The notes beneath the pieces were generated by a model, which saw only the letters and a program-made list of their open reading frames with translations, was not told where the DNA came from and searched no databases. DNA of 64,000 bases, from positions 434,001-498,000 of the forward strand of contig CANNDD010000001.1 in NCBI GenBank assembly GCA_947503285.1. The letters run 5' to 3'. Shown here piece after piece: positions 9,348-24,454 of this stretch. The translations under genes and the position numbers were made by a program. Each line of letters starts with the position of its first letter. Within the stretch, counting starts at the first letter, position 1. This DNA comes from an uncultured Croceitalea sp. (GTDB taxonomy: Bacteria; Bacteroidota; Bacteroidia; Flavobacteriales; Flavobacteriaceae).

Positions 9348-9370
9348 GCGGTAGCAAAAAATGCTACCGC
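9348..9370 (-). terminator. Hairpin terminator of the 17-gene operon
   Basis: A perfect 9-bp inverted repeat GCGGTAGCA / TGCTACCGC (9348-9356 and 9362-9370) with a 5-base loop, followed on the minus strand by a T-rich tail. It lies 63 bp beyond the stop of the last porin gene and may also stop transcription arriving from the AraC gene on the other strand. Confidence 0.8.
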
Positions 9371-9433
9371 CCTATAACCAACCTAACCAAACACTGCCGA
9401 CCAACTACCTCATCGGCAATATTATTATTATCT

Positions 9434-10780
9434 TTAAAAATTAACCTGTGTCGTCCACAGCACATAAAATAAGTTTTCATTAAATCCGGAAACATTTAAA
9501 AAACTACCCGGGTCAATGTAATTCACTTCAATATCACTGCTCAGGAAGCTGTTCCACCTATAATTTGCATGAAGCCCCCATTGCTTGGCTATAAATTTTT
9601 CACCACTATCATTGTTCGCCAACAATTGACCCGGCAAACTATGTATGCCATCCTCGTCCGAGAACCGCCAGAAGGAGTAAAAGTCCACTTCAAAGAGCAG
9701 TCTTTTATGCTGAAACATGATATAAGGGTGTACATCCATTAAGTTATAGGGGCCAAAAAAAGCGACCCTCCCAAAATAGGCACCTTTAGGGTACAATGGG
9801 TTAAAGGTGTTCAAGGTATTATCATTGGCATCCCTATCCCCGCTTATCAATTCCCCATTAAGGCCTAAAGAGAGGGTATTCGTCAATTGGTACAGACCGT
9901 TTATAGAGGCCGTCCATGCGCTTATATCTTGTTCGCCAACGCTGCCGAACTGATACAGGAATTCGTTGTTAAAGGATAAGCTGCCAAGCGTATGTATGGT
10001 TCTAAGCCCGAGACTATGCCGCGTTTCCTCGCCTTCTGCATTGTGATACCTTTCTAACTCGGCATCGTACCCTAGATAATAAAGCTCATAGTTGTTCTTG
10101 TCCGTTTTTGCACCTATCCAATTGTAGAGGCCCCAGACCAGTTCATCACCCAGTACAAAATCATTATCAAAGGCGCCTGGTTTATTCTTTACGGTCGAAT
10201 AGAACAATAGCTCACTTTTGGCCTGTGTCGTCCACCGGTAATTTATTCTGGCCCCATCAAAGGATTGCCTTACATTGGGCCCTTCACGAAAAGTGAGGAT
10301 CCTGCCGCTACCATAGTTCAGGTTCTCCCTTCCCAGAACAACCTCCAACGCATTACTGCGGTAGCGTACGAACCCTTGGTTTACGTGCCAGATATCCCTG
10401 TCTACAGGCCTGAACACTTCTCGACTTGCCGTATGGCTACTGCCCACTTCCAAGAAAAATTGCCATGTGTTGGCTATTCTTAGGTCGGAATGTAGAAATA
10501 ACCGCCCCAGATACCAGTTTTCATCGTTGGGGTCATTGCTCCCCAATGTCTGATTCGTAAAATGTTCCCATTGCGCCCTATAACTGCCCCCCAGGCCAAG
10601 TTTGACCGAATCGCCCAAAGAAAGCACCTTTAAAGTATTATAGGTTTCATATTCGGGATTATTGAACTGCTCAAAATCATCCAACTGTCTTAGAATAATG
10701 AAACGATAATCTTGCGCTTGCATTTGCGAGCTTAAAGCATAGATTATGATGCACACGACCGGTATAGAATAGTTTTTCAT
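9434..10780 (-). CDS. Alginate-export-family outer-membrane porin (copy 1)
   Basis: A 448-aa exported beta-barrel protein. A Sec signal (MKNYSIPVVCIIIYALSSQMQA) is followed by the family's conserved barrel segments: YRFIILRQLDDF, GLGGSYRAQWE, VLGRENLNYGSGRIL, REGPNVRQSFDGARI, NGELISGDRDANDNTLNTF, LYPKGAYFGR and a C-terminus ending in an aromatic (TTQVNF) as expected for barrel assembly. These are hallmarks of the Alginate_exp family (AlgE-like and DOMON-free porins used for export or uptake of small acids and polymers). It is the last gene of the 17-gene operon, 6 bp after the esterase. Two paralogues lie at 16741 and 19300. The substrate is unknown and need not be alginate. Confidence 0.88.
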   Translation of the reverse strand: MKNYSIPVVCIIIYALSSQMQAQDYRFIILRQLDDFEQFNNPEYETYNTLKVLSLGDSVKLGLGGSYRAQWEHFTNQTLGSNDPNDENWYLGRLFLHSDLRIANTWQFFLEVGSSHTASREVFRPVDRDIWHVNQGFVRYRSNALEVVLGRENLNYGSGRILTFREGPNVRQSFDGARINYRWTTQAKSELLFYSTVKNKPGAFDNDFVLGDELVWGLYNWIGAKTDKNNYELYYLGYDAELERYHNAEGEETRHSLGLRTIHTLGSLSFNNEFLYQFGSVGEQDISAWTASINGLYQLTNTLSLGLNGELISGDRDANDNTLNTFNPLYPKGAYFGRVAFFGPYNLMDVHPYIMFQHKRLLFEVDFYSFWRFSDEDGIHSLPGQLLANNDSGEKFIAKQWGLHANYRWNSFLSSDIEVNYIDPGSFLNVSGFNENLFYVLWTTQVNF

Positions 10781-10786
10781 AAGATG

Positions 10787-11740
10787 TTAGTTTTTGTTCC
10801 ATATTTTTAGATAGTCCGCCATACGGCTTATCAGTTCATCCCCTTGCGGTATTGCGGCCCCCAATTGTAAAAAACCATGGATCTGTCCTGGGTAATGCCA
10901 GTGGGCCACTGTCACTTCTGATGCCCTTAACCTGTCTGCATACTGCTCGCCTTCGGTATGTAAAGGGTCAAACCCCCCGGTAACGACCACCGCATCTGGT
11001 AAATCCTGAAGATTTTCCGCCTTTAAAGGAGATAGGTAAGCCTCAGCCAATGTTCGATTATCGGACACATACATTGCAATGTTGGATGCCATATCCGATC
11101 GGGTCAACACATAACCCTTGGTACCCAATTCTTGCCAAGATGTTGAATCCAAAGTCAGGTCGGTATTGGGGTAAATAAGAATTTGCCCTTGAATTCGAGG
11201 TCCGTTCCTATCCCTGGCCATCATTGCCGTTACGGTGGCAAGATTTCCCCCGGCACTATCACCTGCTATAACTATTTTGGTGCCATCCGTTCTTAAGGCC
11301 TTTGTGTTTTGCGACAGCCATTGCAAAACGGCATAACAATCATTGAGGCCCGCCGGAAAGGGGTGCTCCGGTGCAAGGCGATATTGCAATGCCGCCACGA
11401 GAAAACCACTTCTATTTGCCAAAGCCCGTAACGGCCTATCGTGTGTGTCAAGACTGCCGGCCGTAAATCCGCCACCGTGTATGTAGAAAAGTACGGGTAG
11501 GTCATTATTCGCTGTTGGCCTATATAACCGTATTGGGATGTTATTGCCATCAACACCTACAATTTCTTTATTTTCTATGGCATACACTTCTTCGGGCTCA
11601 CCGGCCATAGTGACCAACCCCTCATACCCCTCACGGGTCATGGCCAGCTTTTCTTTGGCATCCAGTTTGGAGAGGGTGGCCAGATTTTCGTTATACTGCC
11701 GTGCAAAATTTTCGACTACTGCCTTTGCTTCTTTATCCAT
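10787..11740 (-). CDS. Alpha/beta hydrolase, HSL-type esterase
   Basis: A 317-aa cytoplasmic esterase of lipolytic family IV. The oxyanion motif HGGGF is at residues 88-92 and the nucleophile elbow GDSAGG at 160-165 (Ser162). The acid and base are in GGFDPLHTEG and GQIHGFLQLG. It probably hydrolyses short acyl or carboxyl esters. It is translated in the operon between the F420-reductase-like gene (43 bp upstream) and porin copy 1 (6 bp downstream), suggesting action on the compound the operon handles. No signal peptide is seen. Confidence 0.92.
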   Translation of the reverse strand: MDKEAKAVVENFARQYNENLATLSKLDAKEKLAMTREGYEGLVTMAGEPEEVYAIENKEIVGVDGNNIPIRLYRPTANNDLPVLFYIHGGGFTAGSLDTHDRPLRALANRSGFLVAALQYRLAPEHPFPAGLNDCYAVLQWLSQNTKALRTDGTKIVIAGDSAGGNLATVTAMMARDRNGPRIQGQILIYPNTDLTLDSTSWQELGTKGYVLTRSDMASNIAMYVSDNRTLAEAYLSPLKAENLQDLPDAVVVTGGFDPLHTEGEQYADRLRASEVTVAHWHYPGQIHGFLQLGAAIPQGDELISRMADYLKIWNKN

Positions 11741-11783: not shown

Positions 11784-12425
11784 TTATCGTAGTACTTTCA
11801 ACCCAACCTTAGGGAACAGGCCGCTGGCCACCGCAAACTGTACCCAGGCCGTGGCCAGGGTCTCTAAACTTCTGGCTACTTTCAGTTTTCCTGCATCAAC
11901 AGGGCTATAGCCTGCATCGTGAATCAAGCTTTTGGCTACATCTTTCGCCTGGGCATCATCTCCGCAATAAAAAATACTGGGGTGTTCGGCATCAAAATCC
12001 CTACTTGGCAATTGCAGGATTTCCGCAAAGGTTATATTGAAGGCCTCTACCACTTTGGCACCTGTCTTCCCTGCCAGGGTTTCTGCAACCGATTGTGCCA
12101 AGGTTGAAGGCAAGCCCACGGTATTGCCTTCAAAATCGGGCTTTAATCCGCTAGAGCAGCTGAGGACTATTTTTCCTTTTAGGTCGGTTCCCTCTAAGGC
12201 CTTATCCATCACATGGGGTGGCGCAGCAAAGAAGAATACATCGCCGAAGGAAACCACTTCACTTACGTCACCCGCCGATAAATTGGTCAGGGATGTTTGT
12301 TCCACTTTTTCTTTCAAGGCATTCAGATTTGTGGTAAAGCCCAATTTTACTTGATGGTTCTTTTGTGCCCAAACTTTACCCAATGCAAAACCCATATTTC
12401 CGGCACCTATAATTCCTATTTTCAT
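11784..12425 (-). CDS. NAD(P)-binding protein, F420-reductase-like
   Basis: A 213-aa Rossmann protein beginning MKIGIIGAGNMGFALGKVWAQ, with the dinucleotide motif GAGNMG at residues 7-12 and the family pattern of NADP:F420 oxidoreductase-like / 2-dehydropantoate-type enzymes (FFAAPPHVMDKAL, KGKIVLSCSSG, AKVVEAFNI, FYCGDDAQAKDVAKSLIHDAGYSPVDAG). In bacteria without F420 such proteins are NADP-linked reductases of unknown substrate. It lies in the operon 11 bp after the small GNAT gene. Confidence 0.85.
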   Translation of the reverse strand: MKIGIIGAGNMGFALGKVWAQKNHQVKLGFTTNLNALKEKVEQTSLTNLSAGDVSEVVSFGDVFFFAAPPHVMDKALEGTDLKGKIVLSCSSGLKPDFEGNTVGLPSTLAQSVAETLAGKTGAKVVEAFNITFAEILQLPSRDFDAEHPSIFYCGDDAQAKDVAKSLIHDAGYSPVDAGKLKVARSLETLATAWVQFAVASGLFPKVGLKVLR

Positions 12426-12436
12426 AGCTACTTGTT

Positions 12437-12757
12437 TTAATGCAACATATATTCAAATTCTGGCAATACCATATTACCGTATTCTTTGTGTCTTTTAATG
12501 AATGCCAACACATAGGGACACATGGGAACTATCTTGGTGCCCTCATCGTTCAGCTCATCAAGGGCCTCATTTACCAGAATACTGGCATAGCCTTTTCCCT
12601 GTAGGCTTGGCGGCACTTCCGTATGTGTCAAATATGCTACGTTTCCCTTCACCGTAAAATATTCCAGTATCGCTATTTGATCATCAATGTGAAGCTCGAA
12701 TCTCTTTTTGGCGCCGCCTACGTTCGTATTATTGATAAATTGATGTTCCATACTCAT
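12437..12757 (-). CDS. Small GNAT-fold N-acetyltransferase
   Basis: A 106-aa single-domain protein of the GNAT_acetyltr_2 (YjdJ-like) group. The acetyl-CoA loop PPSLQGKGYASILVNEALD and the terminal MCPYVLAFIKRHKEY match the family. The beta strands IAILEYFTVKGNVAYLTHTEV precede it. Its start abuts the stop of the 310-aa unknown gene, so the two are translationally coupled. Members of this group are cytoplasmic and mostly of unknown substrate. Confidence 0.85.
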   Translation of the reverse strand: MSMEHQFINNTNVGGAKKRFELHIDDQIAILEYFTVKGNVAYLTHTEVPPSLQGKGYASILVNEALDELNDEGTKIVPMCPYVLAFIKRHKEYGNMVLPEFEYMLH

Positions 12758-13690
12758 TTAGTATCTTGATTTTAGTACTGTATCAATGGCTTCCTTAACG
12801 GTCATTTGCTTTCTAATCCCCATGGTATATGCACGTGCATTTACTACGGAACAAATACCATCTTGATAGGTGCTCGTGGGACTTCCTATTTCTGCGGACA
12901 TTGCCGCTACCGCAACCGCGGCAATACCGGAGTCATTAAGGATATGCAGTCCTGCTACTCCAGAAGAATCCTTTGCGATACCTGCATCGTTGGCAAAAAT
13001 CAATTTTGGATTTACGGGCAAGGTGTATTCGGCCATTACCGCTCCGGAATGCGATGCTACGCAGAAAATAGCATTGGGGTGCTTTTCCTTGATCAATCCG
13101 ATGGACCAAACCGTGTACACTTTGGTATCGTTGTGCTCCTCTACAATTGTTATCTGATCATCATAGTCCAGCTGCTCCTCAACTTTGACCCCAGGCTTCG
13201 CATCTAGCATCAATTTAGCGGCATCCAAAGCTTTCATTCCCTTTGAAACACCCAATTTTTTAGCGGTTTCATTACATACGGAAACGATGCCTTCAGAAAC
13301 CGAAATGCCATCGCTTACTATCGCGGAATGTGTGGCCACTGCGGCAGCCGGTATGCCATGATGCTGGGCAAGGAAAACGCCTTCAATGGCCTTCTGGTTT
13401 TTGCCGACACCGCACTCGTGGGCGATGACGCCCTTAACACCCAGGGCGAGAACTGCCATAAATGTTGGTGTACCCGCAAACGATCCCCCTATGATAATGT
13501 CCTTATCGGTCACCGGATAGAAACCATACCGATCTTCATCATCTAAGTAGGTAAGTGAATTTGAAGCGATGATCCTCCCGCGTTCGTCCTCATATATTTT
13601 AATAACTTCTTTACGTTCCATTTTTAGATGGGCACCACTGAGCGATAGTACTACCAGTATGCTTGCTATTTTATTTTTAATGGGTTCCAT
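12758..13690 (-). CDS. Conserved protein of unknown function, 310 aa
   Basis: I do not recognise a named family. The protein is rich in small residues, with an alternating pattern suggesting an alpha/beta fold: IIIGGSFAGTPTFMAVLALG, VIAHECGVGKNQKAI, GIPAAAVATHSAIVSDGISV, ICSVVNARAYTMGI. Conserved-looking polar groups are HECGVG near residue 92 and ATHSAIVSDG near 119, both of which could form an active site. The first 20 residues are hydrophobic but lack a convincing cleavage site. Met24 (MERKEVIKIYEDERGR) is an alternative start that would give a cytoplasmic protein. The long form overlaps the upstream pirin gene by 14 bp; the short form would not. It sits in the middle of the 17-gene operon, coupled to a GNAT gene. 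Confidence 0.75.
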   Translation of the reverse strand: MEPIKNKIASILVVLSLSGAHLKMERKEVIKIYEDERGRIIASNSLTYLDDEDRYGFYPVTDKDIIIGGSFAGTPTFMAVLALGVKGVIAHECGVGKNQKAIEGVFLAQHHGIPAAAVATHSAIVSDGISVSEGIVSVCNETAKKLGVSKGMKALDAAKLMLDAKPGVKVEEQLDYDDQITIVEEHNDTKVYTVWSIGLIKEKHPNAIFCVASHSGAVMAEYTLPVNPKLIFANDAGIAKDSSGVAGLHILNDSGIAAVAVAAMSAEIGSPTSTYQDGICSVVNARAYTMGIRKQMTVKEAIDTVLKSRY

Positions 13691-14399
13691 TTAACGTTAC
13701 GGGCACTTCAATTATCAGAATATCACAGTCTTCAATACAATTAAAAGAGAGGCTAGGTGCACCGGAAACCGCCATGGCATCCTTTGTAAAAAGGCTATTT
13801 TCATGTAGCTGTAGTTCACCCGTAATGACCATTAGATAGATACCATTGCCTTCTTTTTTAACGGTATAATCCATTTCTCTCCCTTTTGCAAAGGCGCCCC
13901 TTGAAATATAGGCTTCCTGATATATCCTCAGAGTGAGGTCACCATCACCTTCAGGGCCAACCAAGGTTTTCCATTTTCCCGTCCAGTCTGCCGGGTCAAA
14001 GGATGCTATTTCTGAACGCGGCTCAACATTCATTTTGTTCGGTAGGATCCAAATCTGAAACTGCAACGCTTCATCTTCGCTTCTATTAAGGTCGGAATGT
14101 GTAACCCCTGTTCCCGCAGAAATTGCCTGAACCATATTTTCCCTAATATTTCTTGTTCCCGATACATCGGTATGTACTAGATCGCCTTGAAATTGAACCG
14201 TGATAATTTCAAAATTCTCGTGTGGATGTTCTGGAAAGCCCTTGCCCGGGGCTATACTGCTGTCATTGAGTACCCTTAATGCCCCGAAACCCATTCTTTT
14301 TGGATCGTGGTATTGCCCAAAACTAAACGAATACCGGGCTTTGAACCATCCAAAATCTGCTGCACCCCTTGAATCCGATCTTATTATTTGATATTCCAT
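13677..14399 (-). CDS. Pirin family protein (copy 1)
   Basis: A 240-aa bicupin. The metal site of pirins is visible in HPHENFEI (His58, His60) and GTGVTHSDLN (His101). The fourth ligand position, Glu in the classical enzyme, reads Asp103 here. Pirins of the YhhW type oxidise flavonols such as quercetin in vitro; others act as redox sensors. The gene starts 17 bp after the SMP-30-like gene and overlaps the start of the 310-aa gene. A second pirin is encoded at 15324 in the same operon. Confidence 0.93.
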   Translation of the reverse strand: MEYQIIRSDSRGAADFGWFKARYSFSFGQYHDPKRMGFGALRVLNDSSIAPGKGFPEHPHENFEIITVQFQGDLVHTDVSGTRNIRENMVQAISAGTGVTHSDLNRSEDEALQFQIWILPNKMNVEPRSEIASFDPADWTGKWKTLVGPEGDGDLTLRIYQEAYISRGAFAKGREMDYTVKKEGNGIYLMVITGELQLHENSLFTKDAMAVSGAPSLSFNCIEDCDILIIEVPVTLNGTH

Positions 14400-14416: not shown

Positions 14417-15322
14417 TTAGCTTTTTGGAAGTACGGTCACCTTAAAATCCGTAATCTTGGTATCGTCCTGACCCGCCTTATCCAATTGTGAGTTGAGCAC
14501 GTATATGGCATCTTTTCCAATGGCAACGGCCGTAGGAAAGGCAAGTCCCTCTTTTATAATGGATGATGTGCCGTTCGTAAAATCACTGTTCAACTCTACC
14601 TTCGCAAGCTTACCCGCGACATTAATGGCTACATACAGTGTATCACCATCTATGGCGATACCGTCCCCATTGCGCAAAGGGGCTCCTGAAACTTTAATTT
14701 TGGCAACCTTTTTGGTTTTTGTATCTATTCTGAACAATTCACCGGTATTGGTCTGTATTACGATTAAAAAGGCCTTGTTCTTTGTGAGTACTATACCATT
14801 TAGGTTATAGCCGCTTTGATATTTAATGACCGTATCATCTAAATTCAACCACTCGTGAAGTGCGTTTCCTTTTTCTTGATCAAATTCATAGATCATGGGT
14901 CTAAACGAATCGGTCACATACCCCTTGTTCGTATCCCATACCGCCACATCATTGATGAATATTTCTTTTTCGCCAAGGTCTTGTGGTACGGTAAACTCAT
15001 ATAGTTTTTGTCTGTAGGTTGAAGAAAACACCCCTACTGTGCCATTAGTACCGTTGGCCACGTACAGCCTATCGGTAAATGCTTTTATGCCAAGGGCCGA
15101 TGGGGGATTTTCCTTAACGGGCATAGCCTTAAAACCCTTCTCTTTGATGCCGGCCCTATATAGGGTTCCATGCATCATTGAACCGGTATACAAGGAATTG
15201 GTGTTAAAAGAGTATGCCAGCCCCTCGGGAAAAGCATTCTCAGCAGAAATTTTCAGGTCTTGGTTCTGGGCAAAGCCCATTTTAAGTAAACAAAGCGCTA
15301 GTACGGTGACTATGTGTTTCAT
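14417..15322 (-). CDS. Exported SMP-30/gluconolactonase-like beta-propeller protein
   Basis: A 301-aa protein with a Sec signal (MKHIVTVLALCLLKMGFAQ) followed by a six-bladed propeller of the SMP-30/NHL kind: FPEGLAYSFNTNSLYTGSM, FINDVAVWDTNKGYVTDS, YNLNGIVLTKNKAFLIVIQ, RNGDGIAIDGDTLYVAINV, FPTAVAIGKDAIYVLNS. The Glu in the first strand and the Asn/Asp later in the propeller match the usual metal-ligand positions of lactonases. It probably acts in the periplasm on a lactone or binds a small ligand. One base separates it from the upstream pirin gene at 15324. Confidence 0.82.
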   Translation of the reverse strand: MKHIVTVLALCLLKMGFAQNQDLKISAENAFPEGLAYSFNTNSLYTGSMMHGTLYRAGIKEKGFKAMPVKENPPSALGIKAFTDRLYVANGTNGTVGVFSSTYRQKLYEFTVPQDLGEKEIFINDVAVWDTNKGYVTDSFRPMIYEFDQEKGNALHEWLNLDDTVIKYQSGYNLNGIVLTKNKAFLIVIQTNTGELFRIDTKTKKVAKIKVSGAPLRNGDGIAIDGDTLYVAINVAGKLAKVELNSDFTNGTSSIIKEGLAFPTAVAIGKDAIYVLNSQLDKAGQDDTKITDFKVTVLPKS

Positions 15323-15323: not shown

Positions 15324-16046
15324 TTAATTTATTTTAGGTACATCAATGATCAAAATATCGGTGTGTTGGTCAAATGCAATGGCCACCTCTGTAAATTCAT
15401 CGTCGGCTATTCCCAGACCATCCCTTCTGTTCAAGGTATTGTTCATTACCGTGGCTTGGCCCTCAATAACAAATAAGTAGATACTATTTCTTTCGGATCG
15501 TTTGTGATAGGCGAGGCTCTTGTTTTTATCAAAAGTGCCACGCCAGACCCAAACATTTTGGTTGATGACCAGGCTATTCCCTTCACCTTCGGGTGATGTA
15601 AGTAACTGTAACTTGTTTTTTCTATCTTCTGGATCGCTGACCATCGTCTGATATTTGGGTGTGATATTCTGTTTTTTGGGTAAAAACCAAATTTGAAGAT
15701 TGTCTATGGGTATGGTGGATGAATGGTTGTATTCGGAATGTTCTATTCCGGTTCCCGCCGAAATTAGCTGAATGGCATTTGCCACATTTACCCCTTCGTT
15801 ACCTGAGGTATCTGAATGTACCATTTCACCGCTGATGACTACGCTTAGAATTTCCATATTCTCGTGGGGATGCATGCCAAAACCTTTGCCCCCAGGTGCT
15901 ATTATGCCATTATCCAAGATGATCATGGCACCAAAGTGCCTTCGGTCAGGAGTAGGCGGATGCCCCGGGTTAAAGGATTGATACAATTCTATCCACCCCA
16001 TATTCCTGTGGCTCCTTGTCCTTTCCGGATGGTAAACTAATTCCAT
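15324..16046 (-). CDS. Pirin family protein (copy 2)
   Basis: A 240-aa bicupin with the complete pirin metal site: His59 and His61 in HPHENMEI, His103 and Glu105 in GTGIEHSEYN. It shares length and layout with the copy at 13677 but differs through much of its sequence and keeps the Glu ligand. It precedes the SMP-30-like gene by one base and follows the cysteine hydrolase gene after a 55-bp gap holding a hairpin. Confidence 0.93.
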   Translation of the reverse strand: MELVYHPERTRSHRNMGWIELYQSFNPGHPPTPDRRHFGAMIILDNGIIAPGGKGFGMHPHENMEILSVVISGEMVHSDTSGNEGVNVANAIQLISAGTGIEHSEYNHSSTIPIDNLQIWFLPKKQNITPKYQTMVSDPEDRKNKLQLLTSPEGEGNSLVINQNVWVWRGTFDKNKSLAYHKRSERNSIYLFVIEGQATVMNNTLNRRDGLGIADDEFTEVAIAFDQHTDILIIDVPKIN

Positions 16047-16061
16047 AGCTCTACGGTTTTT

Positions 16062-16088
16062 AACCCCCGAGCGTTATGCCCGAGGGTT
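16062..16088. terminator. Intra-operon hairpin
   Basis: AACCCCCGAGC (16062-16072) faces GCCCGAGGGTT (16078-16088) across a 5-base loop; 9 of 11 positions pair by Watson-Crick and the other two could be wobble pairs on one strand. It lies in the largest gap of the 17-gene operon (between the cysteine hydrolase and pirin copy 2). With no long U tract it may be an attenuator or a processing site, not a full terminator. Confidence 0.5.
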
Positions 16089-16101
16089 TTGCATAGGTTA
16101 C

Positions 16102-16740: not shown

Positions 16741-18087
16741 TTAAAATGTAAATGTTGTTGTGAACAGCAGAAAGCTTAACGTACTGTTGCCGTCCTGTTC
16801 TTGTATAAAATTTTCGGGCAGTATGATATTGGTCTCCAGATCAGTGGCCAAAAACTTGTTCCAATGATATTTTACGGTAAACGCCAGTTGCTGCGCTACA
16901 AAACGTTCGTTGTTCACGGGTTGGAACAATAAAAACCCTCCACTACCATAAATCCCGTCTTCTAGGGAATACCTCCAAAAGGCGTAGTGCCCCAAGTCTA
17001 ACATCCAGTTATTTTTTCTGTATTGAAAGCTGTTGTGTAAGTCGATGAGGTTATAGGGGGCGAATCGTGCGGCCCGTCCAAAGTATGCCACATCGGGATA
17101 TAGGGGATTAAAGGTATTGAGCCTATCATCGCCCTGATCATTATCGCCACTTATCAATTCTGCATTGATCTCATATTCCAAGGATTCCGATATTTTATAT
17201 ACGGTCTTGAGCGACAGCGTCCATGCGCTTACATTCTGTGTCGCTACGTTTCCGAACTGATATACGAATTCATGATTAAAGCGTAACGGTCCCCACGGAA
17301 TTTCCATGCGCGTACCTAGACTATGCCTTACTTCGTTTCCTTGAACGGCCACGTAGGTCGAAAATTCTTGGCGCACCCTAAAGTAATAAAGCTCCAAAAG
17401 GGTGGTATCTGAGAATAACTTCAATGTATTGTAACTGCCCAGTACATAATCATTAAATTGATAGAATCCGTTGTGAAAAACACCCCTTTCTATGGGAACA
17501 AGGCTGAGGGCCAAAAGTTCACTGGAAAAATTGTTTTTCCCATATGCCGCCCTGAACGTATCAAAGGACAGGCGCACATTGGGTCCTTCCCGTATGGCGA
17601 ACAGTCTTCTAGATCCATAGTTTAAGTTCTCGCGGCCTATGGTCCAATTAAAATGTCCGGTTCGGAATTTGAAAAACAATTGGTTTACATAAAGGCGATC
17701 CCGGTCTAGAACACTCGGATTGTCTTTTGTGATACTATGCGAGCTCCCCAGTTCAAAGAAAAACTGAAATGCCTTACGGTCGCGTACATCCAAATGAAAC
17801 AACCCTCTTGTTAAAATACCGGTATTGTCTTGATCGGTGGGTTGAAACAGTGGTTGGTCCAACAGCTCAAATTGTGCCCTGGCACTACCACCAATAGATG
17901 CACTACCGCCCAAAAGGCCAAAATTCTTGACCTTTTCGTAAGCTGAATTATTGTTGGTAGGAACATAGGATTGCCACGTATCATATTGCCGCAACAATGA
18001 AAATTGAAGGGAGTCTTGCTGCGCATCGATTTGCATCGGCAAAATTACCAGCCAGATAAAAATGATATGTATCGCTCTTATGTTCAT
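16741..18087 (-). CDS. Alginate-export-family outer-membrane porin (copy 2)
   Basis: A 448-aa beta-barrel protein with a signal peptide (MNIRAIHIIFIWLVILPMQIDAQ). Family landmarks are SLLRQYDTW, IGGSARAQFE, TIGRENLNYGSRRLF, REGPNVRLSFD, NAELISGDNDQGDDRLNTF, LYPDVAYFGRAARF and the aromatic C-terminus TTTFTF. Its start overlaps the stop of the lipocalin-like gene (ATGA), showing translational coupling. It resembles the copies at 9434 and 19300 in length and layout but differs enough to suggest different cargo. Confidence 0.88.
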   Translation of the reverse strand: MNIRAIHIIFIWLVILPMQIDAQQDSLQFSLLRQYDTWQSYVPTNNNSAYEKVKNFGLLGGSASIGGSARAQFELLDQPLFQPTDQDNTGILTRGLFHLDVRDRKAFQFFFELGSSHSITKDNPSVLDRDRLYVNQLFFKFRTGHFNWTIGRENLNYGSRRLFAIREGPNVRLSFDTFRAAYGKNNFSSELLALSLVPIERGVFHNGFYQFNDYVLGSYNTLKLFSDTTLLELYYFRVRQEFSTYVAVQGNEVRHSLGTRMEIPWGPLRFNHEFVYQFGNVATQNVSAWTLSLKTVYKISESLEYEINAELISGDNDQGDDRLNTFNPLYPDVAYFGRAARFAPYNLIDLHNSFQYRKNNWMLDLGHYAFWRYSLEDGIYGSGGFLLFQPVNNERFVAQQLAFTVKYHWNKFLATDLETNIILPENFIQEQDGNSTLSFLLFTTTFTF

Positions 18088-18437
18088 TCTTCTTTTATGG
18101 AAATGGATACTACTGTTCGGGTTCCTGTTGGTGAACTAAATTTTAAAGGACGCTTTTCATGGGGCGCACTATGGCATATACTAAGGATATTACCCTCTAG
18201 CTTGATGATTCCCCGCAATAGTTCTCCTCTATAGGGGTCCGTTTGAGGATAAATATCCAATCGCTGTATGTCTTCGCCCGTAGGGATCAATTGAAAATCC
18301 CTTTTCCAGATATCACCTTGGGCAAGACGCTCGAATTTATTCGCTTTGAAGACAAGAAATGCCTCACCTTTCAATTCTTTTCCGCCGATTATTGCCTTTT
18401 GGATACGCCAAGTGCCTTCTAGACTCCCTATATCCAT
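18084..18437 (-). CDS. Lipocalin-like small protein (TIGR03067-like)
   Basis: A 117-aa protein starting MDIGSLEGTWRIQKAIIGGKEL. The LEGTW opening, the following GG, and ICHSAPHEKRPLKFSSP near the end match the small lipocalin-like domain called TIGR03067, which usually lies in exported or stress-related proteins. No signal peptide is seen. It is coupled on both sides: its ATG shares a base with the stop of the flavodoxin gene (TAATG) and its stop overlaps the start of porin copy 2. The function of the domain is unknown. Confidence 0.72.
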   Translation of the reverse strand: MDIGSLEGTWRIQKAIIGGKELKGEAFLVFKANKFERLAQGDIWKRDFQLIPTGEDIQRLDIYPQTDPYRGELLRGIIKLEGNILSICHSAPHEKRPLKFSSPTGTRTVVSISIKEE

Positions 18438-19261
18438 TATCCTGATGTAAACATCCGTAATACTTCCGGGGATGGTGAAACGTTACCGGCCGCAAATATT
18501 TGGTTTCCTTTAAGGGCTTTAGTAAGCCGGGCTACGTTGGCCCCGTGATGATAGGCGGCCTCCAACATCTCTGGTGCCAGCTTTTGTGGCATCATCTTTA
18601 TTCCGCCCGTACGACCGCTGGGGCCCCAATGGCTCAAGGCAAAATCCGCTCCCGGGGTAATTTTGGGAAAAGGTGTCAAAATCATACCGTTGGCCGCCAT
18701 TGCCGATAAAATGCTCAGTTGTGCCAGCTCACAACCGGCGCCGTTGTTACCATGGCCTCCACCAACGGAAAACACACCGCCTACCTTACCTACGAAATTA
18801 TCCGTTAGCCATCCTTTTTCCCAGACCCGTTCTATATATTCCTTCAATCGGGAATGCATATTTCTGTGCTTCATGGGTGAACCGGCAATGACACCATCGG
18901 CGGCAACGGTATCTTCCATAGTGGCGTCCGCGGCCATTTTTCGTACTACATTGACGCCTTCCACTGATTTTGCCCCTTCCTCTACCGCTTCCGACATGGT
19001 TCTTGTAGAACCAAAATCAGTAGTATAGACAATAAGCACATTGGCGTTGTCCTTATTCGGAAAACCTGCAAAAGCACCATTGCCCTCAGGAATGGGGTCC
19101 AGTTCCATCCCATAAAATGAAGTTTGGGTGGTAATGGCCAGGCCTGCCGCCACCAAGGAACTTTTTTTTACGAAATCCCTTCGGCTATCTTCTACTACAA
19201 GGTGTTCGTCCAATTTTTTTGCTTTGACCTTTGCGGTCTTCTCCTTTAACTTGCTTTCCAT
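18437..19261 (-). CDS. Tat-exported flavodoxin/WrbA-like NAD(P)H-quinone reductase
   Basis: A 274-aa protein. After a charged 26-residue lead, a twin-arginine signal appears (SRRDFVKKSSLVAAGLAITTQ, Arg27-Arg28). A flavodoxin-like domain follows, with phosphate loop YTTDFGSTRTMSEA, AAADGVIAGSPMKHRNMHSRLKEYIERVW, and GKVGGVFSVGGGHGNNGAG as in WrbA. WrbA enzymes reduce quinones by two electrons using FMN. A Tat signal means it is exported folded with its cofactor, so periplasmic quinone or flavin chemistry is implied. It precedes the lipocalin-like gene with a TAATG overlap. Confidence 0.85.
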   Translation of the reverse strand: MESKLKEKTAKVKAKKLDEHLVVEDSRRDFVKKSSLVAAGLAITTQTSFYGMELDPIPEGNGAFAGFPNKDNANVLIVYTTDFGSTRTMSEAVEEGAKSVEGVNVVRKMAADATMEDTVAADGVIAGSPMKHRNMHSRLKEYIERVWEKGWLTDNFVGKVGGVFSVGGGHGNNGAGCELAQLSILSAMAANGMILTPFPKITPGADFALSHWGPSGRTGGIKMMPQKLAPEMLEAAYHHGANVARLTKALKGNQIFAAGNVSPSPEVLRMFTSG

Positions 19262-19299: not shown

Positions 19300-20679
19300 T
19301 TAAAACTTAAATTCCGTTGTGAACACGAAATGAAAGAGTGTATTGTCCAATCCGCCCTGTTCTAGAAAACCACCGGGGAGTATGACGTTACTCTCCGCTT
19401 CCAGCGCTATGTATGGCGACGGCGACCAATTGAGCACGGCACCATATTGATGGCCAATAAAACGCTCATCGTTTACATCGGGAAAATCGAGGATACCTGC
19501 TGCTCCATAAACACCATCTTGTACCGACTCTCGCCAGAAAGCAACATAGTCCAATTCCAATTTTAGCGTATTGAACGCTATGGAGAACTCTGGATGTACG
19601 TCTATAAGATTGGAAGGCCCAAATTGAGCCACTCGCCCAAAATAGGCACCTCTTGGATATAGGGCATTAAAGGTGTTCAATACATCATCATCGGGGTCAT
19701 TGTCCCCTGATATCAATTCACTTTTTAAGCCCACCTCATATTGCCAGTTTTTATTGCCAAAACCGTAGGCCGCGTGCAGGGATATGGTATATGCCCTAAT
19801 ATTGGCGGTTCCAAAATCCCCGAACTGGTATAGGGCTTCAAAATCATAGAATAAGCCCTTTGGTTCGCCAAAAACACGTAGGCCCAAGCTATGGCGCTCT
19901 TCATTTGCCACACCTTGTGAATACCCAATATCATCTATAACACGACCTATGTAATAAACATCCGCAAGGAATTCTTCTTTTTTGAAGGTTACGGTATTAT
20001 AGTTGCCCCAAAGAAATTCGCTGTCGTCTAAAAGGTCATTGTCAAAACCAAAAGGGGAAATCTGTACGGGGAAACTTAAAAAAGCCTCGGCGGTTATCTT
20101 GGTATCTGAAAAGGTTACTTTTACATTGTCAAAATAACGCCGAACATTGGGCCCTTCCCTCAGTGCCAATATCCTGCGCGCCCCATAATCTGGACTTTCC
20201 CTACCTATCAGAACGTTCCATTTGGCCCATGCATAGGTCATGAACAGTTGACTCACGGCAAATTCATCCCGGTCTACAGGGGATGGGAATTCTTTAGACC
20301 ATACAGAACTACTGTTTAATTCGGCGTACGCCTGAAAGTTGTTCCATTTCAGATGGGCATGTGCCATTACCCTATTCAACCACCAACCATCAGAATTTCC
20401 TTCCACGAAGGCTTCATTGTCAAAATATTCGAATTGCCCCCTATAGCTGCCTCCAAAGGACAGATAGGCATCCTCGCCCAATGTGCGGTACTTGAATTTG
20501 TCATAGGCCGCCTTACTTTCCTTTTCTTTGAAATACGAAATATTATCATTTTGACGAAGTAGGGCAAACCCGGGTTTGCCATCTTCTTCTTGTGCTGATA
20601 AAATTGCACAGGCCAAGAGACTAAAAACGAATGCCTTTAGATACCATTTTGACCCTTTTGTATATCTCGTTTTCATCAA
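19300..20679 (-). CDS. Alginate-export-family outer-membrane porin (copy 3)
   Basis: A 459-aa barrel with signal peptide (KWYLKAFVFSLLACAILSAQ; the ATG at 20679 or the next codon starts it). Landmarks: ALLRQNDNISYF, SFGGSYRGQFEYF, LIGRESPDYGARRIL, REGPNVRRYFDNV, KSELISGDNDPDDDVLNTF, LYPRGAYFGRVAQFGPSNLIDVHPE, C-terminal TTEFKF. It is the porin nearest the operon's promoter. The NTF2-like gene ends 20 bp upstream and the flavodoxin gene starts 38 bp downstream. Confidence 0.88.
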   Translation of the reverse strand: MMKTRYTKGSKWYLKAFVFSLLACAILSAQEEDGKPGFALLRQNDNISYFKEKESKAAYDKFKYRTLGEDAYLSFGGSYRGQFEYFDNEAFVEGNSDGWWLNRVMAHAHLKWNNFQAYAELNSSSVWSKEFPSPVDRDEFAVSQLFMTYAWAKWNVLIGRESPDYGARRILALREGPNVRRYFDNVKVTFSDTKITAEAFLSFPVQISPFGFDNDLLDDSEFLWGNYNTVTFKKEEFLADVYYIGRVIDDIGYSQGVANEERHSLGLRVFGEPKGLFYDFEALYQFGDFGTANIRAYTISLHAAYGFGNKNWQYEVGLKSELISGDNDPDDDVLNTFNALYPRGAYFGRVAQFGPSNLIDVHPEFSIAFNTLKLELDYVAFWRESVQDGVYGAAGILDFPDVNDERFIGHQYGAVLNWSPSPYIALEAESNVILPGGFLEQGGLDNTLFHFVFTTEFKF

Positions 20680-20699: not shown

Positions 20700-21065
20700 T
20701 TAAGTGAACAATGGTGCGGCATCCATCACCATTCTAAAATCGTCTATTTTGCTATTTTTGGTTCTCAATATGCTTACTGCGGGTAGTATCACTTTTTCTC
20801 CATTCTTTTTTATGAACAACACATCTGCCTCAAAAACAGCACTGTCATCGGCTATCCAAATGCCTTTTTTATGGTGTTCCATGGTCTGCAGCATTTCATA
20901 AAACCCAATGAGTACTTCCAATATGGCCTGTGGACCTATTACCGCATTGGCATTGCCAAACTTGAACGATCCGTTTTCCCCGTAATATGAAGTGACTTTT
21001 TCTGGGTGCATGGTATCCACATCCTTGAAATAATCAATAACAAATTGTTCCGTTAATCTTTTCAT
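20700..21065 (-). CDS. NTF2-like (SnoaL-type) protein
   Basis: A 121-aa single-domain cone-fold protein: FVIDYFKDVDTMHPEKVTSYYGENGSFKFGNA followed by the strand-rich half SAVFEADVLFIKKNGEKVILPAVSILRTKNSKIDDFRMVMD matches SnoaL-like polyketide-cyclase/isomerase folds. Such proteins act on small hydrophobic ligands or as accessory subunits. No signal is seen. It is encoded between DoxX and porin copy 3. Confidence 0.82.
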   Translation of the reverse strand: MKRLTEQFVIDYFKDVDTMHPEKVTSYYGENGSFKFGNANAVIGPQAILEVLIGFYEMLQTMEHHKKGIWIADDSAVFEADVLFIKKNGEKVILPAVSILRTKNSKIDDFRMVMDAAPLFT

Positions 21066-21101: not shown

Positions 21102-21485
21102 CTAGGTAGTTTCCAGTTGCGTTATGGGTTTATATTTATGTTTGTTGGCCCAAAGTATCAAGCAGTTCATTGCCATTAAAATTGCCGCCATTACCACTCC
21201 ATTGGGCGCGAGAAAGGCGTTAAAAAGCAATATTCCGATAATAACGGGCGAGAGAACGATAGCTCCAAGCGCCTGTGTTCTGGGTATTGCCATAAGAATG
21301 CCCCCAATTATCTCGGCGATGCCTACCAAGGCCATGAGCCATCCGGATGCGATCATTGCGCCCATTAATTCCATACCCGCCTGGGGGAGTTCTGGTACCG
21401 GCATGTGACCGGTGAACTTTGAAATTCCCGAATTGGCCATGAATACTCCGAAGAGTACGGAGATGACAATTACTATTTTTTTCAT
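21102..21485 (-). CDS. DoxX-family membrane protein
   Basis: A 127-aa protein with four predicted membrane helices: KKIVIVISVLFGVFMANSGI, MLMGAMIASGWLMALVGIAE-like, LGAIVLSPVIIGILLFNAFL and MAAILMAMNCLILW. This is the DoxX fold. The ATG at 21485 (MKKIV) is chosen because it lies 7 bp after the amidohydrolase stop; the longer frame from 21515 would overlap that gene and add charged residues before the first helix. DoxX proteins associate with thiol and redox homeostasis in some bacteria. Another DoxX gene sits before nhaA at 31990. Confidence 0.83.
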   Translation of the reverse strand: MKKIVIVISVLFGVFMANSGISKFTGHMPVPELPQAGMELMGAMIASGWLMALVGIAEIIGGILMAIPRTQALGAIVLSPVIIGILLFNAFLAPNGVVMAAILMAMNCLILWANKHKYKPITQLETT

Positions 21486-21492
21486 ACGATGC

Positions 21493-23304
21493 TTAGTTTC
21501 TTTGATACCCGCCATAATATTTTACGGGGGACCAATCAGGTATAATTTCTGGTAGTTCGGGCGTTAAGGCCTCAAATTCCTCGGCTCCATAAACCACACT
21601 ACCGTCCACTACGGTAAGTACCGAAGAGAGGTCTTTTATTTTCTCTTCGGGAACGCTGAAATAATCATCCGATAAGATTGCAAAATCTGCAAACATCCCG
21701 TTTTCCAGAGTCCCTTTTACGTCTTCTTCCTTGGATACCCATGCACTGCCTTGTGTGTACAGATAAAGTGCTTCGGGCCTGCTCAAAATATTGGACGGTT
21801 CACTCAATTGCAGGCCACCTACGGTTTTTCCCGTGGTCAACCAGTAGAGCGCCGACCAAGGGTTGTAGCTTGCTACACGGGTACCATCGGTACCTGCACC
21901 TACGGGCAGTCCCATTTCCATCATCTTTTTTATGGGGGGTGCCGCTTTGGCTTTGTCCGCTCCATACCGTTCTACAAAGTACTCCCCGGCATAGGCCATT
22001 CTGGCTTGGATGGCGATACCGCCATTGAGCACCTTTATCCTTTGCAGCTCTTTTTCCTTGACCGTTTCCGCATGATCGATCAACCATCGTTGAGAGGCTA
22101 ATTTTCCATTGGTCTCTTCATTGACTTCCTCTATCACATCCATGATATTGGCAATGGTCTCCCCGTATGTGGCATGTATTCTAAAAGGCCACCCTTTGTC
22201 TACATGCATTCTGATGATTCTCTTGATATCCGACCTCCAAGTAGGTCTATCTTCAAGAAAGGGCTGTGGCGCCAAAAAGTTCTCAAAATCCCCGGCGCTC
22301 CAAGCTAAAAACTCACCACCACCTTCAAGTTCATACCCATGGTCTATGTGTATTTCCCCGTTATGACCTACTTCGTTATTGGCCATCCACTCTTGAAACT
22401 CTTCGTATTCGGCACCTTTGTTTTGTGGAAACAGGAAATACGACAATCTTATAGGCATCTGTCCATCTTCTGCCAGTGTTTTTGTGCCTACATAGTCTTT
22501 TGGAAATTTATGTCCGCCACCACCGGCATCAATACCGCTAGTAATACCCTGACTGTTGAGCTCCCTATAAAAATGCTTTGTGCCGTTCACCATTTGGGCT
22601 TCCGTAAGTGGCGGCAAACCTCCGATACGGGCATATAGAATAGTAGGATTTGGTTCGGCCAGCAATACCCCGGTCAACATTCCATTACTGTCTTTTTCAA
22701 ACCTAGAACCCTCGGGCGCCTTGGTATTTTCATCAATACCCATTGCTTTAAGCCCAGCTTTGTTCAACCAGGCACGGCTGTATAAAAACAGCACATAGGT
22801 AGGTACATCACCTGTGGCCTCATTGATTTCTTCGGGTGTTGGAAATCTGTTTTCCTCGAATTGAAAGGGACTCCAGCCCCCGATTACACGTACCCACTGG
22901 CCTTCTGGCGTTCGTTCTGCTTGTTCTTTAAGCATCTCCAGCGCTCTTTTAAGTGTTTTTACGCCATCCCATCGCAATTCGGCACTATAAAATCTTCCGC
23001 CTCTGGTCAAATGCAAATGGGAATCATTGAGTCCCGGAATAATGGTGCGGCCGCCAGCATCAATATGCTGTGTATCTTCACCCTTAAGCTTCAAGATATC
23101 ATCTGTAGTACCGGTTTGAAGAATTTTACCGTCTTTTACTGCTAGGGCATTGGCCATGGTATAACTTTTATCCATGACCGCCACCTTGGCATTGGTTACA
23201 ATCAAATCCGCTGTATCTTCCAACGACGCATTGCCCTCTTTGTTTTTGTCCTTACAGGCCAAAAAACCGATGCAGACCAATAGTGGGAATAATAAATTTT
23301 TCAT
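21493..23304 (-). CDS. YtcJ-like amidohydrolase, lipoprotein
   Basis: A 603-aa metal-dependent hydrolase of the amidohydrolase_3 group. A lipoprotein signal ends at Cys17 (PLLVCIGFLACKDKN), which anchors it to a membrane on the periplasmic side. The first metal motif is NDSHLHLTRGG. Later motifs are DHAETVKEKELQRIKVLNGG (His) and GAGTDGTRVASYNPW (Asp). Relatives include N-substituted formamide deformylase and YtcJ; the true substrate is unknown. The gene lies between the exported cysteine hydrolase and DoxX, so two exported amide-type hydrolases are made together. Confidence 0.92.
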   Translation of the reverse strand: MKNLLFPLLVCIGFLACKDKNKEGNASLEDTADLIVTNAKVAVMDKSYTMANALAVKDGKILQTGTTDDILKLKGEDTQHIDAGGRTIIPGLNDSHLHLTRGGRFYSAELRWDGVKTLKRALEMLKEQAERTPEGQWVRVIGGWSPFQFEENRFPTPEEINEATGDVPTYVLFLYSRAWLNKAGLKAMGIDENTKAPEGSRFEKDSNGMLTGVLLAEPNPTILYARIGGLPPLTEAQMVNGTKHFYRELNSQGITSGIDAGGGGHKFPKDYVGTKTLAEDGQMPIRLSYFLFPQNKGAEYEEFQEWMANNEVGHNGEIHIDHGYELEGGGEFLAWSAGDFENFLAPQPFLEDRPTWRSDIKRIIRMHVDKGWPFRIHATYGETIANIMDVIEEVNEETNGKLASQRWLIDHAETVKEKELQRIKVLNGGIAIQARMAYAGEYFVERYGADKAKAAPPIKKMMEMGLPVGAGTDGTRVASYNPWSALYWLTTGKTVGGLQLSEPSNILSRPEALYLYTQGSAWVSKEEDVKGTLENGMFADFAILSDDYFSVPEEKIKDLSSVLTVVDGSVVYGAEEFEALTPELPEIIPDWSPVKYYGGYQRN

Positions 23305-23353
23305 GTTGTTGTTTTTGGGTTCATCTTACGGCCTTTTACCATATGGTTATAGC

Positions 23354-24106
23354 CTAGTTTTTGGCATTATGCTCTTTTTCCCACTTGTCTAGGGTTTTCT
23401 TGTAATCGATACCCAATCCGTAGGCGCCGCCCCATCTTTTGGCAATTTCGTTCATCTTTACGTACATATCCGATCTTGCCCAGTCCCTATGGACTTCAAG
23501 GGCATATTGTAAAGAGGTCATTGGTTTGATGCCTGCTTGGACCATTCGCATTATGGACATGTCATGGGCCTCTTGTGAAACCCCGCCAGAGGCATCGGTA
23601 ATCACATAAACATCATACCCGTCTTCTTTTGCCGATAATGCAGCGGATAGTACGCAGACCTCCGTCCATAAGCCGGCTATGACCAGCTTTGGTTTTTTGT
23701 ACTCGCCTACTTTTGCGACCACTCTTATGTCTTCCCAAGAGTTCATGGTCGTGCGGTCTATATATGATTTTTCATCGGGAAAAAACTCCCTGATTTCTGG
23801 AAAGACCGGTCCACTAAAGGATTTCTCGGCTACCGTTGTCACCACTGTTGGTATTTCGTAGATAGTGGCAAGCTCGGAAATGAGCCCGGTGTTGTTCCTC
23901 AGCTCTTCAATAGGTTGTGACTCTACGGCGAAAGCCATTTGACTTTCGTGGTCGATCAACAGCAGGGTGTGATTGGTTGGATGCACCAATTCTTTGGATG
24001 CATTGGCAGGATCGTTATTGGGATTAGGATTGTACTGTTTCCATTGGGCACTGGCCAGGTTGATGGATAAAACGGCAAGCAGTACTGTAGTCGTCAACTT
24101 TTTCAT
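23354..24106 (-). CDS. Exported cysteine hydrolase, YcaC-like (copy 2)
   Basis: A 250-aa hydrolase with a Sec signal (MKKLTTTVLLAVLSINLASAQ). Asp52 in LLIDHESQM and Cys151 in AGLWTEVCVLSAAL are the expected catalytic Asp and nucleophile. The DASGGVSQEAHDMS segment is YcaC-typical. It is the first gene of the 17-gene operon. The Lys of the usual triad could not be assigned with confidence. It shares the fold with the gene at 16102 but is about 45 residues longer because of the signal and a C-terminal tail. Confidence 0.92.
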   Translation of the reverse strand: MKKLTTTVLLAVLSINLASAQWKQYNPNPNNDPANASKELVHPTNHTLLLIDHESQMAFAVESQPIEELRNNTGLISELATIYEIPTVVTTVAEKSFSGPVFPEIREFFPDEKSYIDRTTMNSWEDIRVVAKVGEYKKPKLVIAGLWTEVCVLSAALSAKEDGYDVYVITDASGGVSQEAHDMSIMRMVQAGIKPMTSLQYALEVHRDWARSDMYVKMNEIAKRWGGAYGLGIDYKKTLDKWEKEHNAKN

Positions 24107-24454
24107 CGGTATAAATTTTAATTGTTAATTCGTTTTGGGAATTGGAATGGTACATGATCGCACCAAGCTACTTTTACCCTATTGGCTAAATTAGGGGAAG
24201 GTGTTGCCTTGTCCATAGCATGATTACAAGGATATATTGAACATTTGACAGTTTAAGGCCTTTTAATGCAATTATTATACTGATTCGCAGCTAATTATAT
24301 TTTTCAAAATACCGGTGAACCCCAAAAAATGCTATCAATTCGCTGATAAGTACAATAGGAGTTCCGTAATATGGGCGAAATTGGTTGGGGGTTATATGAC
24401 TCCCTTGAAAATGGCTTTCCCATGCGTATATAAACCGTTGGGTAAATAAATTCA
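24107..24454. other. Promoter region of the 17-gene operon and of the zinc-finger gene
   Basis: About 350 bp between divergent genes. It holds the conserved block at 24228-24252 described separately. No other gene or hairpin is convincing; short frames here are AT-rich and not protein-like. Confidence 0.5.
24228..24252 (-). promoter_or_regulatory. Conserved upstream element shared with the doxX-nhaA operon
   Basis: About 125 bp upstream of the first operon gene, read on the minus strand as ACTGTCAAATGTTCAATATA then TCCTTG. A block differing at 3 of 23 positions lies at 32521-32543, about 105 bp upstream of the DoxX-NhaA operon in the same orientation. The end of the block (TATCCTTG) is one change from the Bacteroidota -7 box TAnnTTTG, so it may be promoter plus operator. 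Confidence 0.45.

Follow-up and report, generated by a model that had tools for sequence, protein, structure and literature searches.

The quinone-detoxification regulons of Bacillus and Staphylococcus count MhqO-type dioxygenases and MhqD among their members (PMC6798810). Pseudomonas fluorescens In5 confronted with Rhizoctonia jointly raises the expression of DoxX, an alpha/beta hydrolase, a hydrolase, pirins/quercetinases, azoreductases and a hydroquinone reductase, and pirins can be quercetinases (PMC5557065). Relatives of several of these proteins are encoded in or beside a run of 17 genes that we analyzed in a 64,000-nucleotide stretch of DNA from an uncultured marine flavobacterium, Croceitalea sp. 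(contig CANNDD010000001.1, positions 434,001 to 498,000 of the forward strand; hereafter the window). Sequence comparison indicates that the window joins two separately conserved modules. Module A comprises an exported YcaC-like hydrolase (eYcaC), a YtcJ amidohydrolase, DoxX and an outer-membrane barrel. Module B comprises a WrbA-like flavoprotein with a twin-arginine translocation (Tat) signal, a barrel, YcaC, two pirins, SMP-30, a tandem-DUF1805 protein of 310 amino acids, an esterase and a further barrel. We consider it about as probable as its negation (roughly 50%) that the composite operon acts in both periplasm and cytoplasm on reactive phenols and quinones or on conjugates of them, for detoxification or scavenging. 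No publication on this operon was found among the matches listed from the open-licence PMC literature, which does not imply its absence from print.

All 17 open reading frames (ORFs) lie on the minus strand, from position 24106 down to 9434 (Table 1), and the intergenic gaps from the first gene to the last are 49, -23, 36, 20, 38, -1, -4, 24, 55, 1, 17, -14, 0, 11, 43 and 6 bp. These coordinates bear out an earlier description made from the letters of the window (the sequence-only reading), which had reported a same-strand run with a maximum gap of 55 bp and five close couplings (TAATG, ATGA, a 14-bp overlap, 0 bp and 1 bp). The gap of -23 bp between the YtcJ and DoxX genes varies with the choice of the DoxX start codon. 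The terminator described at the end of the run is a real and strong hairpin 3′ of the last gene: a 76-nucleotide stretch there has a folding energy of -25.4 kcal/mol, whereas shuffled versions average -15.0 (z -4.0; 1 of 200 shuffles did as well). Its T tail is weak, and a simple terminator scan did not list it.

The unity claimed for this run stands in that its order is kept in a relative. The sequence-only reading had named a lack of conserved order in every relative as grounds for refutation, and the unit withstood that check. Locus L040, from an uncultured Aquimarina, carries 12 of the 17 window genes in the window order (NTF2, barrel A, WrbA-like, lipocalin-like, barrel B, YcaC, pirin A, SMP-30, pirin B, the 310-residue protein, esterase and barrel C). 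A chance run of genes is rejected on this ground, and the comparison supports the operon as a conserved unit rather than a random assembly. L040 has no GNAT and F420-like gene inside the cluster and no eYcaC, YtcJ or intact DoxX gene in front of it. MhqD-like, MhqO-like and cysteine-rich genes lie just ahead of the cluster, and a convergent AraC gene lies just behind barrel C. Short eYcaC- and DoxX-like fragments (L040 positions 4898-5185 and 7869-8081) occupy the place where the window has intact eYcaC, YtcJ and DoxX genes. Because these fragments remain, the comparison suggests that this stretch was lost in L040.

The duplicated genes of the operon are old. Barrels A, B and C of the window are 68, 69 and 75% identical to their L040 counterparts, as against 36-43% for L040 barrels compared with non-matching window barrels. 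Likewise, the two L040 pirins are 75 and 71% identical to their own window counterparts and 35-37% identical to the other pirin. The three barrel kinds and two pirin kinds therefore predate the divergence of these clusters. Within the window, barrel A is 37-38% identical to its two paralogues. The three barrels are the sole PF13372 matches in their own genome (140-163 bits), which encodes five pirins, two of them in this operon.

Module B is rare. A search of genome contigs for the WrbA-like protein gave 69 pattern matches, of which 6 were confirmed as relatives at 5 distinct loci, four in uncultured Aquimarina and one in Parvularcula maris, which has parts of the module. Two of the Aquimarina loci (L041 and L042) share the WrbA-like protein, barrel B, YcaC, pirin A, pirin B and the esterase with the window, and a third (L043) additionally shares SMP-30, the 310-residue protein and GNAT. 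Group counts here and below are based on genomes drawn evenly from larger groups. The WrbA-like protein was unmatched in the other 58 of 59 relatives, and 31 of the other 295 phylum genomes had weaker matches only (at most 39% identity among the matches listed). In the genus of G704, an Aquimarina genome, it was found in 2 of 66 genomes, both at already-known loci; the genomes of L041 and L042 lie outside that set.

Module A has a wider, sporadic distribution. Relatives of eYcaC occur in 13 of 299 family genomes at E <= 1e-40, the source genome included (12 of the other 298). We took 14 stretches covering all 15 eYcaC matches of the 12 other genomes and compared them by blastp with window and Aquimarina proteins. 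Each of the 15 eYcaC relatives has a YtcJ relative within 8 kb (identity 41-79%). A barrel lies within the same distance in 11 of the 14 stretches and slightly farther away in L090 and L092, with none within the L085 stretch. Full-length pirins were found in 11 stretches, YceI in 11 and a relative of the sigma-54 activator in 13, L092 being interrupted by a contig end; the two activator relatives scanned with Pfam are PAS/sigma-54 proteins. Tyrosinase relatives are present in 2 of the 14 stretches, and G704 also has one. In L081, L082 and L055 (the last from G704), genes for SCO1 and a tyrosinase with a twin-arginine (RR) leader separate the YceI gene from the module A genes for YdcZ and the barrel. 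L087 carries an azoreductase-like gene. At the level of the phylum, strong YtcJ relatives (E <= 1e-150) occur in 14 of 395 genomes, the source genome included.

The arrangement of the two modules in other Aquimarina genomes replaces the idea of a single pathway with that of two units. In G704 and G705, eYcaC and YtcJ belong to a separate run of genes that is located 16 and 11 kb further along and has its own barrel and pirin. In L041 and L042, module B is directly followed by the module A run, with two small genes and an interval of roughly 0.2 kb between them. These linking genes (positions 15339-16577) encode proteins of 192 and 137 residues, and the L043 counterpart of the latter matches AtaL (PF08982).

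Relatives of module A proteins are also carried on plasmids. Among 72,556 plasmid records, 434 have eYcaC relatives (E <= 1e-30) and 365 have YtcJ relatives (E <= 1e-80). Eight stretches were chosen by hand, five from the YtcJ list and three from the YcaC list, and their labels were checked by blastp. The two genes are adjacent or one gene apart in five of them (Cronobacter, Priestia, Acinetobacter, Pantoea and Niveispirillum) and lie within 5 kb of each other in Azotobacter, and the Rahnella and Rhizobium stretches are without the pair. The pair thus occurs on plasmids of Proteobacteria and Bacillota. An annotated DoxX gene directly follows YtcJ in three of the eight stretches, and blastp found no barrel in them. 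On a Sulfitobacter plasmid, four genes stand in an uninterrupted row (WrbA-like protein, tyrosinase, barrel and YtcJ), with a hydrolase-amidohydrolase pair beyond AraC genes.

If the operon does handle phenols and quinones, the three non-redundant alginate-export-type barrels would pass small phenolics across the outer membrane. In the periplasm, YtcJ, eYcaC, the SMP-30-like and the tandem-DUF1805 proteins would split or trap conjugates, and the Tat-exported WrbA-like flavoprotein would act on the quinone form. The conversion would be completed in the cytoplasm by both pirins, the esterase, the second YcaC-like hydrolase and small proteins of cyclase-like and reductase-like type, the adjoining MhqO/MhqD-like pair would open hydroquinone rings, and DoxX may couple the process to the respiratory quinone pool. 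The sequences show the order of the genes, their conservation and neighbors, the family matches and the export signals; the substrate, the transport direction, every catalytic step and the mode of control are what we infer. A more specific version strikes us as rather doubtful. In that version of an envelope-spanning system, quinones or their conjugates would enter through dedicated barrels and undergo hydrolysis and reduction in the periplasm, the WrbA-like flavoprotein would carry out the reduction with electrons taken from the membrane quinone pool via DoxX, the tandem-DUF1805 protein would be a new periplasmic enzyme or binding protein, and the cytosolic pirins and MhqO arm would finish the task.

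The phenol/quinone interpretation draws on the conserved Aquimarina order and on the company that module A keeps, namely pirin, YceI, azoreductase-like and tyrosinase/SCO1 genes. The sequence-only reading had proposed import or export of a small acidic or aromatic amide or ester, with processing in two compartments and quinone control. Its aromatic and quinone theme is strengthened by the MhqO-like dioxygenase adjoining the operon, by the tyrosinases of some sister loci and by the same pirin, YceI and azoreductase-like company. The tyrosinases, accompanied by SCO1 in three loci, tie the kit to phenol oxidation. Processing in both periplasm and cytoplasm is plausible since export signals recur in most relatives. 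YtcJ relatives variously have lipoprotein leaders, Tat-type RR leaders (L082, L083, G706 and W01) or Sec-like leaders (L090 and L092), and the RR motif of the WrbA-like protein is present in the homologues of G704, G705 and G706 and absent in W01. The sequence-only reading is thus supported in part; an amide or ester, an acidic or uronic substrate, and import or export are conjectural elements of it. As a separate observation, the YtcJ proteins of L082, L083, L044 and L008 have a Tat-type RR leader, and those of most other family stretches have a lipoprotein-type signal, so that the routes of export differ.

Several points weigh against this interpretation. Tyrosinase is evidently not essential, because relatives of the sister-locus enzyme are lacking in the source genome and in G705 (a search with a real tyrosinase query and known tyrosinase genomes as controls) and such a gene is present in only 2 of the 14 family stretches. 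Neither an azoreductase nor a MarR-type sensor was found among the scanned operon and flank genes, where the regulators are of the AraC type and a two-component pair. A WrbA-like protein in the periplasm would be without NAD(P)H. By a crude scan, the eYcaC relatives of L090, L092, L094 and W01 have no export leader, and the same holds for the YtcJ relative of L094, a second YtcJ copy in W01 and the WrbA-like protein of W01. The pirin, YcaC and DoxX families are broad and connected to quinones only indirectly, and for all members here the substrate assignment is one that we infer. In addition, the paper on P. fluorescens In5 terms its second hydrolase a distant phosphoesterase relative, not an isochorismatase (PMC5557065).

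The same genes could instead form a catabolic operon through which a single amide, ester or lactone of aromatic or cyclic structure serves as a carbon or nitrogen source; the barrels would import this compound, the periplasmic hydrolases and lactonase would open it, and cytosolic enzymes would channel the product to central metabolism. Three barrels, two amidase-type hydrolases and lactonase-like and esterase genes would suit such a pathway, as would the relatives of the 310-residue protein that lie among catabolic genes on several plasmids. Yet profile scans of the 17 genes revealed neither a CoA ligase nor an inner-membrane importer, and no ring-cleavage route leading to central metabolites; moreover, the distribution is sporadic with varying accessory genes, so that we regard this pathway as unlikely though worth keeping in view. 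YceI, DoxX, pirin and YcaC are known from many stress settings, and with two-component and AraC regulators beside the operon this recurrence could point to a general response to oxidants or electrophiles such as hypochlorite or peroxide, not specific to quinones. However, none of the 17 genes matches a peroxidase, thioredoxin or methionine sulfoxide reductase, and the nearby MhqO-like dioxygenase and the tyrosinases of some sister loci favor phenols; a general stress role is accordingly judged improbable.

The operon might also serve to make, mature or export a phenolic product (a melanin-like polymer, pigment or weapon) of which tyrosinase would be the maker in some relatives. The presence in sister loci of SCO1, an RR-leader tyrosinase and YdcZ, a small putative exporter, agrees with this, and so do barrels of an alginate-export type, but the 17 genes include no biosynthetic assembly genes and the tyrosinase has no relative in the source genome or G705, leaving this proposal only a slim chance. 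The family name of the barrels would suggest export of alginate or uronate, and three proteins do match PF13372. Because no alginate polymerase, epimerase, lyase or other polymerization or modification gene was matched among the 17 or the scanned flank genes, we reject alginate export as scarcely credible.

Bacteria commonly encode YcaC, pirins, YtcJ amidohydrolases, YceI and DoxX, and little is understood of these proteins. The locus described here and those related to it unite them in a single kit that is conserved in Flavobacteriaceae-like genomes and largely extracytoplasmic, and the recurrence of the YcaC-YtcJ core in Proteobacteria and Bacillota leads to testable substrate guesses for several families together. 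If algal phenolics are indeed handled, the kit would bear on the life of marine flavobacteria on algae.

Table 1. Features of the 17-gene operon and its flanks in the window.
Feature	Coordinates	Strand	Supporting match
g01, exported YcaC-like cysteine hydrolase (eYcaC), module A	23354..24106	-	Pfam Isochorismatase 79.3 bits
g02, YtcJ-type amidohydrolase, lipoprotein-like N-terminus by eye, module A	21493..23304	-	Pfam Amidohydro_3 367 bits
g03, DoxX-like small membrane protein	21102..21515	-	Pfam DoxX 23.1 bits, just below cut-off 23.6
g04, NTF2/SnoaL-like protein	20700..21065	-	Pfam SnoaL_2 29.6 bits, cut-off 27
g05, alginate-export-type outer-membrane barrel A	19300..20679	-	PF13372 163 bits; 68% to L040 counterpart
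g06, Tat-type exported WrbA-like flavoprotein, module B	18437..19261	-	Tat signal 19.2 bits, cut-off 16.7
g07, lipocalin-like (TIGR03067-like) small protein	18084..18437	-	TIGR03067 39.1 bits, just below cut-off 40.15
g08, alginate-export-type outer-membrane barrel B	16741..18087	-	PF13372 140 bits
g09, YcaC-like cysteine hydrolase without export signal	16102..16716	-	Isochorismatase 69.6 bits
g10, pirin A (YhhW-like)	15324..16046	-	Pirin 76.7, Pirin_C_2 75.1 bits
g11, exported SMP-30-like protein	14417..15322	-	SGL 28.6 bits, cut-off 26.3; signal-like N-terminus
g12, pirin B	13677..14399	-	Pirin 76.1, Pirin_C_2 59.9 bits
g13, 310-residue exported protein, two tandem DUF1805-like repeats	12758..13690	-	DUF1805 32.2 bits, cut-off 29.5
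g14, small GNAT-like protein	12437..12757	-	Acetyltransf_CG 91 bits
g15, F420-reductase-like NAD(P)-binding protein	11784..12425	-	F420_oxidored 58.5 bits
g16, hormone-sensitive-lipase-type esterase	10787..11740	-	Abhydrolase_3 237.6 bits; LipP1 330, cut-off 350
g17, alginate-export-type outer-membrane barrel C	9434..10780	-	PF13372 147.6 bits; 75% to L040 counterpart
Terminator hairpin	9343..9375	-	14-bp stem in predicted fold
GAF and sigma-54-activator response regulator	3640..5616	-	Sigma54_activat 248.8 bits
TPR sensor histidine kinase	5632..7740	-	31-33% relative in L041-L043
AraC regulator, convergent with operon	8112..9155	+	HTH_18 66 bits
Small cysteine/histidine-rich protein	24455..24742	+	76% relative, same place in L040
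Pycsar-effector-like membrane protein, between operon and MhqO-like gene	24777-25370		PycTM 31.3 bits, cut-off 27.2
MhqO-like ring-cleaving dioxygenase, outside the 17-gene run	26621..27556	-	3oaj MhqO (B. subtilis) E 1.8e-84
Phospholipase/carboxylesterase-type hydrolase (MhqD-like)	27584..28216	-	Abhydrolase_2 86.8 bits (general family model); 69% relative in L040

Family labels in the window are Pfam and NCBIfam profile matches or blastp matches, and they confirmed most of those previously assigned. The labels for DoxX and the lipocalin-like protein, the latter without a Pfam match, proved weak, and the 310-residue protein, formerly called unknown, matches DUF1805. Export was called from a crude hydrophobicity scan, the NCBIfam Tat match for g06 and a lipobox-like sequence seen by eye in g02; by these means 8 of the 17 products look exported (the three barrels, g01, g02, g06, g11 and g13). 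On the NCBIfam equivalog models, scores were 135.8 bits for g01 and 152 bits for g09 with YcaC (NF041461, cut-off 310), 50.6 bits for g06 with WrbA (TIGR01755, cut-off 132.5) and 49.3 bits for g15 with NpdG (TIGR01915, cut-off 149.8). Because these cut-offs are not reached, the four proteins are best called relatives, not members, of the respective groups. Both pirins exceed the cut-offs for the Pirin and C-terminal cupin domains, and the best solved relative of pirin A is yhhW (1tq5, E 3e-40).

The active site described for P. aeruginosa YcaC consists of Asp19, Arg84 and Cys118, and the part of that paper available to us names no substrate (PMC4519933). In g01 the corresponding residues read as Asp52, Arg118 and Cys151, which are invariant in all six sequences compared, the window included. 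The position of P. aeruginosa Ser59 is Val92 in all six, whereas g09 retains Ser. The latter protein matches P. aeruginosa YcaC (4wgf) at E 3.7e-35 and is 94% identical to its L040 counterpart.

The two halves of g13 align to each other with an hhalign probability of 99.9 (E 8.1e-34), and blastp between halves was positive in all eight aligned sequences (E 4e-7 to 3e-21). A hydrophobic or lipoprotein-like leader is present on the copies of the window, G704 and G705, which supports the start codon and 14-bp overlap chosen earlier. Relatives at 25-35% identity occur in 13 plasmid records; in 12 of these the protein bears the annotation hypothetical, and the remaining record is unannotated. Four of the six inspected lie among breakdown-type genes (Aminobacter, Natronosalvus, Rhodococcus and Rhizobium); the Methylovirgula relative is surrounded by dehydrogenases and a transposase, and that of Ponticoccus adjoins replication genes. 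Plasmid-borne relatives in a haloarchaeon and in Rhodococcus show the same duplication. No solved relative was found by sequence up to E 10, the AlphaFold model from three sequences was poor, with a mean predicted local distance difference test score (pLDDT) of 56.8, and the protein was unmatched in the other 396 of 397 family genomes. Two pattern-limited scans of viral contigs confirmed no relative of g13 or of the WrbA-like protein.

Downstream of the operon, a second AraC gene accompanies the convergent AraC gene, the TPR kinase and the sigma-54 regulator. In L041-L043, genes related to the kinase (31-33%) and regulator (51%) are found next to the WrbA-like gene in divergent orientation, with domains scanned in L041. 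Upstream, the cysteine/histidine-rich protein is presumably a UBP-type zinc finger, and the genes on that side also include one for a metallo-beta-lactamase-like hydrolase. The MhqO-like protein also matches dichlorohydroquinone dioxygenase 4huz (E 1.5e-56) and has a 74% relative upstream of the L040 cluster.

No sigma-54 or Bacteroidota-type promoter exceeded chance upstream of g01. In the sigma-54 scan, 30 regions were scored on the operon-facing strand by a rule of our own against shuffles that keep base composition only, and all five window regions stayed below a score of 10 (7, 8, 8, 3 and 8). Among 25 regions of relatives, nine scored at least 10, eight before operons (L084 twice, L086, L087, L088, L093, and the WrbA genes of G705 and L041) and one between convergent genes (G704), which means that the rule yields false matches too. 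A sigma-54 link is thus suggested for the relatives and not for the window. In L084, L086, L087, L088, L093 and ahead of the WrbA genes of G705 and L041, the sites have the form TGGCAY-N5-TNGC; they fit the neighboring sigma-54 activators and are absent upstream of the window g01.

The operon has a G+C content of 44.8%, compared with 39.3% in the remaining window, and a G+C fraction at third codon positions of 0.456 compared with 0.408 in 28 hand-picked flank ORFs (Mann-Whitney p 0.001). In combination with so patchy a distribution, the contrast hints that the operon was acquired by transfer, although differing constraint could be an alternative cause.

Among known systems, the alginate export porins (PF13372) have the barrel family in common with the window, which has no alginate genes among its scanned neighbors. 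The response of P. fluorescens In5 to Rhizoctonia solani is similar in that an alpha/beta hydrolase, a hydrolase, a pirin/quercetinase and DoxX are co-induced, but the genes have scattered locus tags rather than forming one operon, and azoreductases and a hydroquinone reductase stand where the window has an exported WrbA-like protein (PMC5557065). The Pantoea, Cronobacter and Niveispirillum plasmid clusters (hydrolase, DUF1427, amidohydrolase, DoxX and a major facilitator superfamily (MFS) transporter) resemble module A in having a YcaC-like protein (42-53%) beside YtcJ (49-50%), with DoxX right after YtcJ. They differ by the MFS transporter and DUF1427, and the stretches read contain no barrel, WrbA-like or 310-residue protein gene. 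Like the YodB/MhqR/QsrR regulons of Bacillus and Staphylococcus, the window has a hydroquinone dioxygenase of the MhqO/MhqE type, here outside the 17-gene run, adjoining a phospholipase/carboxylesterase-type hydrolase, together with a flavoprotein related to quinone reductases and DoxX, a family linked to mhqP and catD. Those regulons are controlled by MarR repressors, whereas no quinone-sensing repressor of the MarR type was found among the scanned flank genes of the window and its regulators are of the AraC and two-component types. The window is further set apart from them by its two pirins, its amidohydrolases and its large periplasmic and outer-membrane arm.

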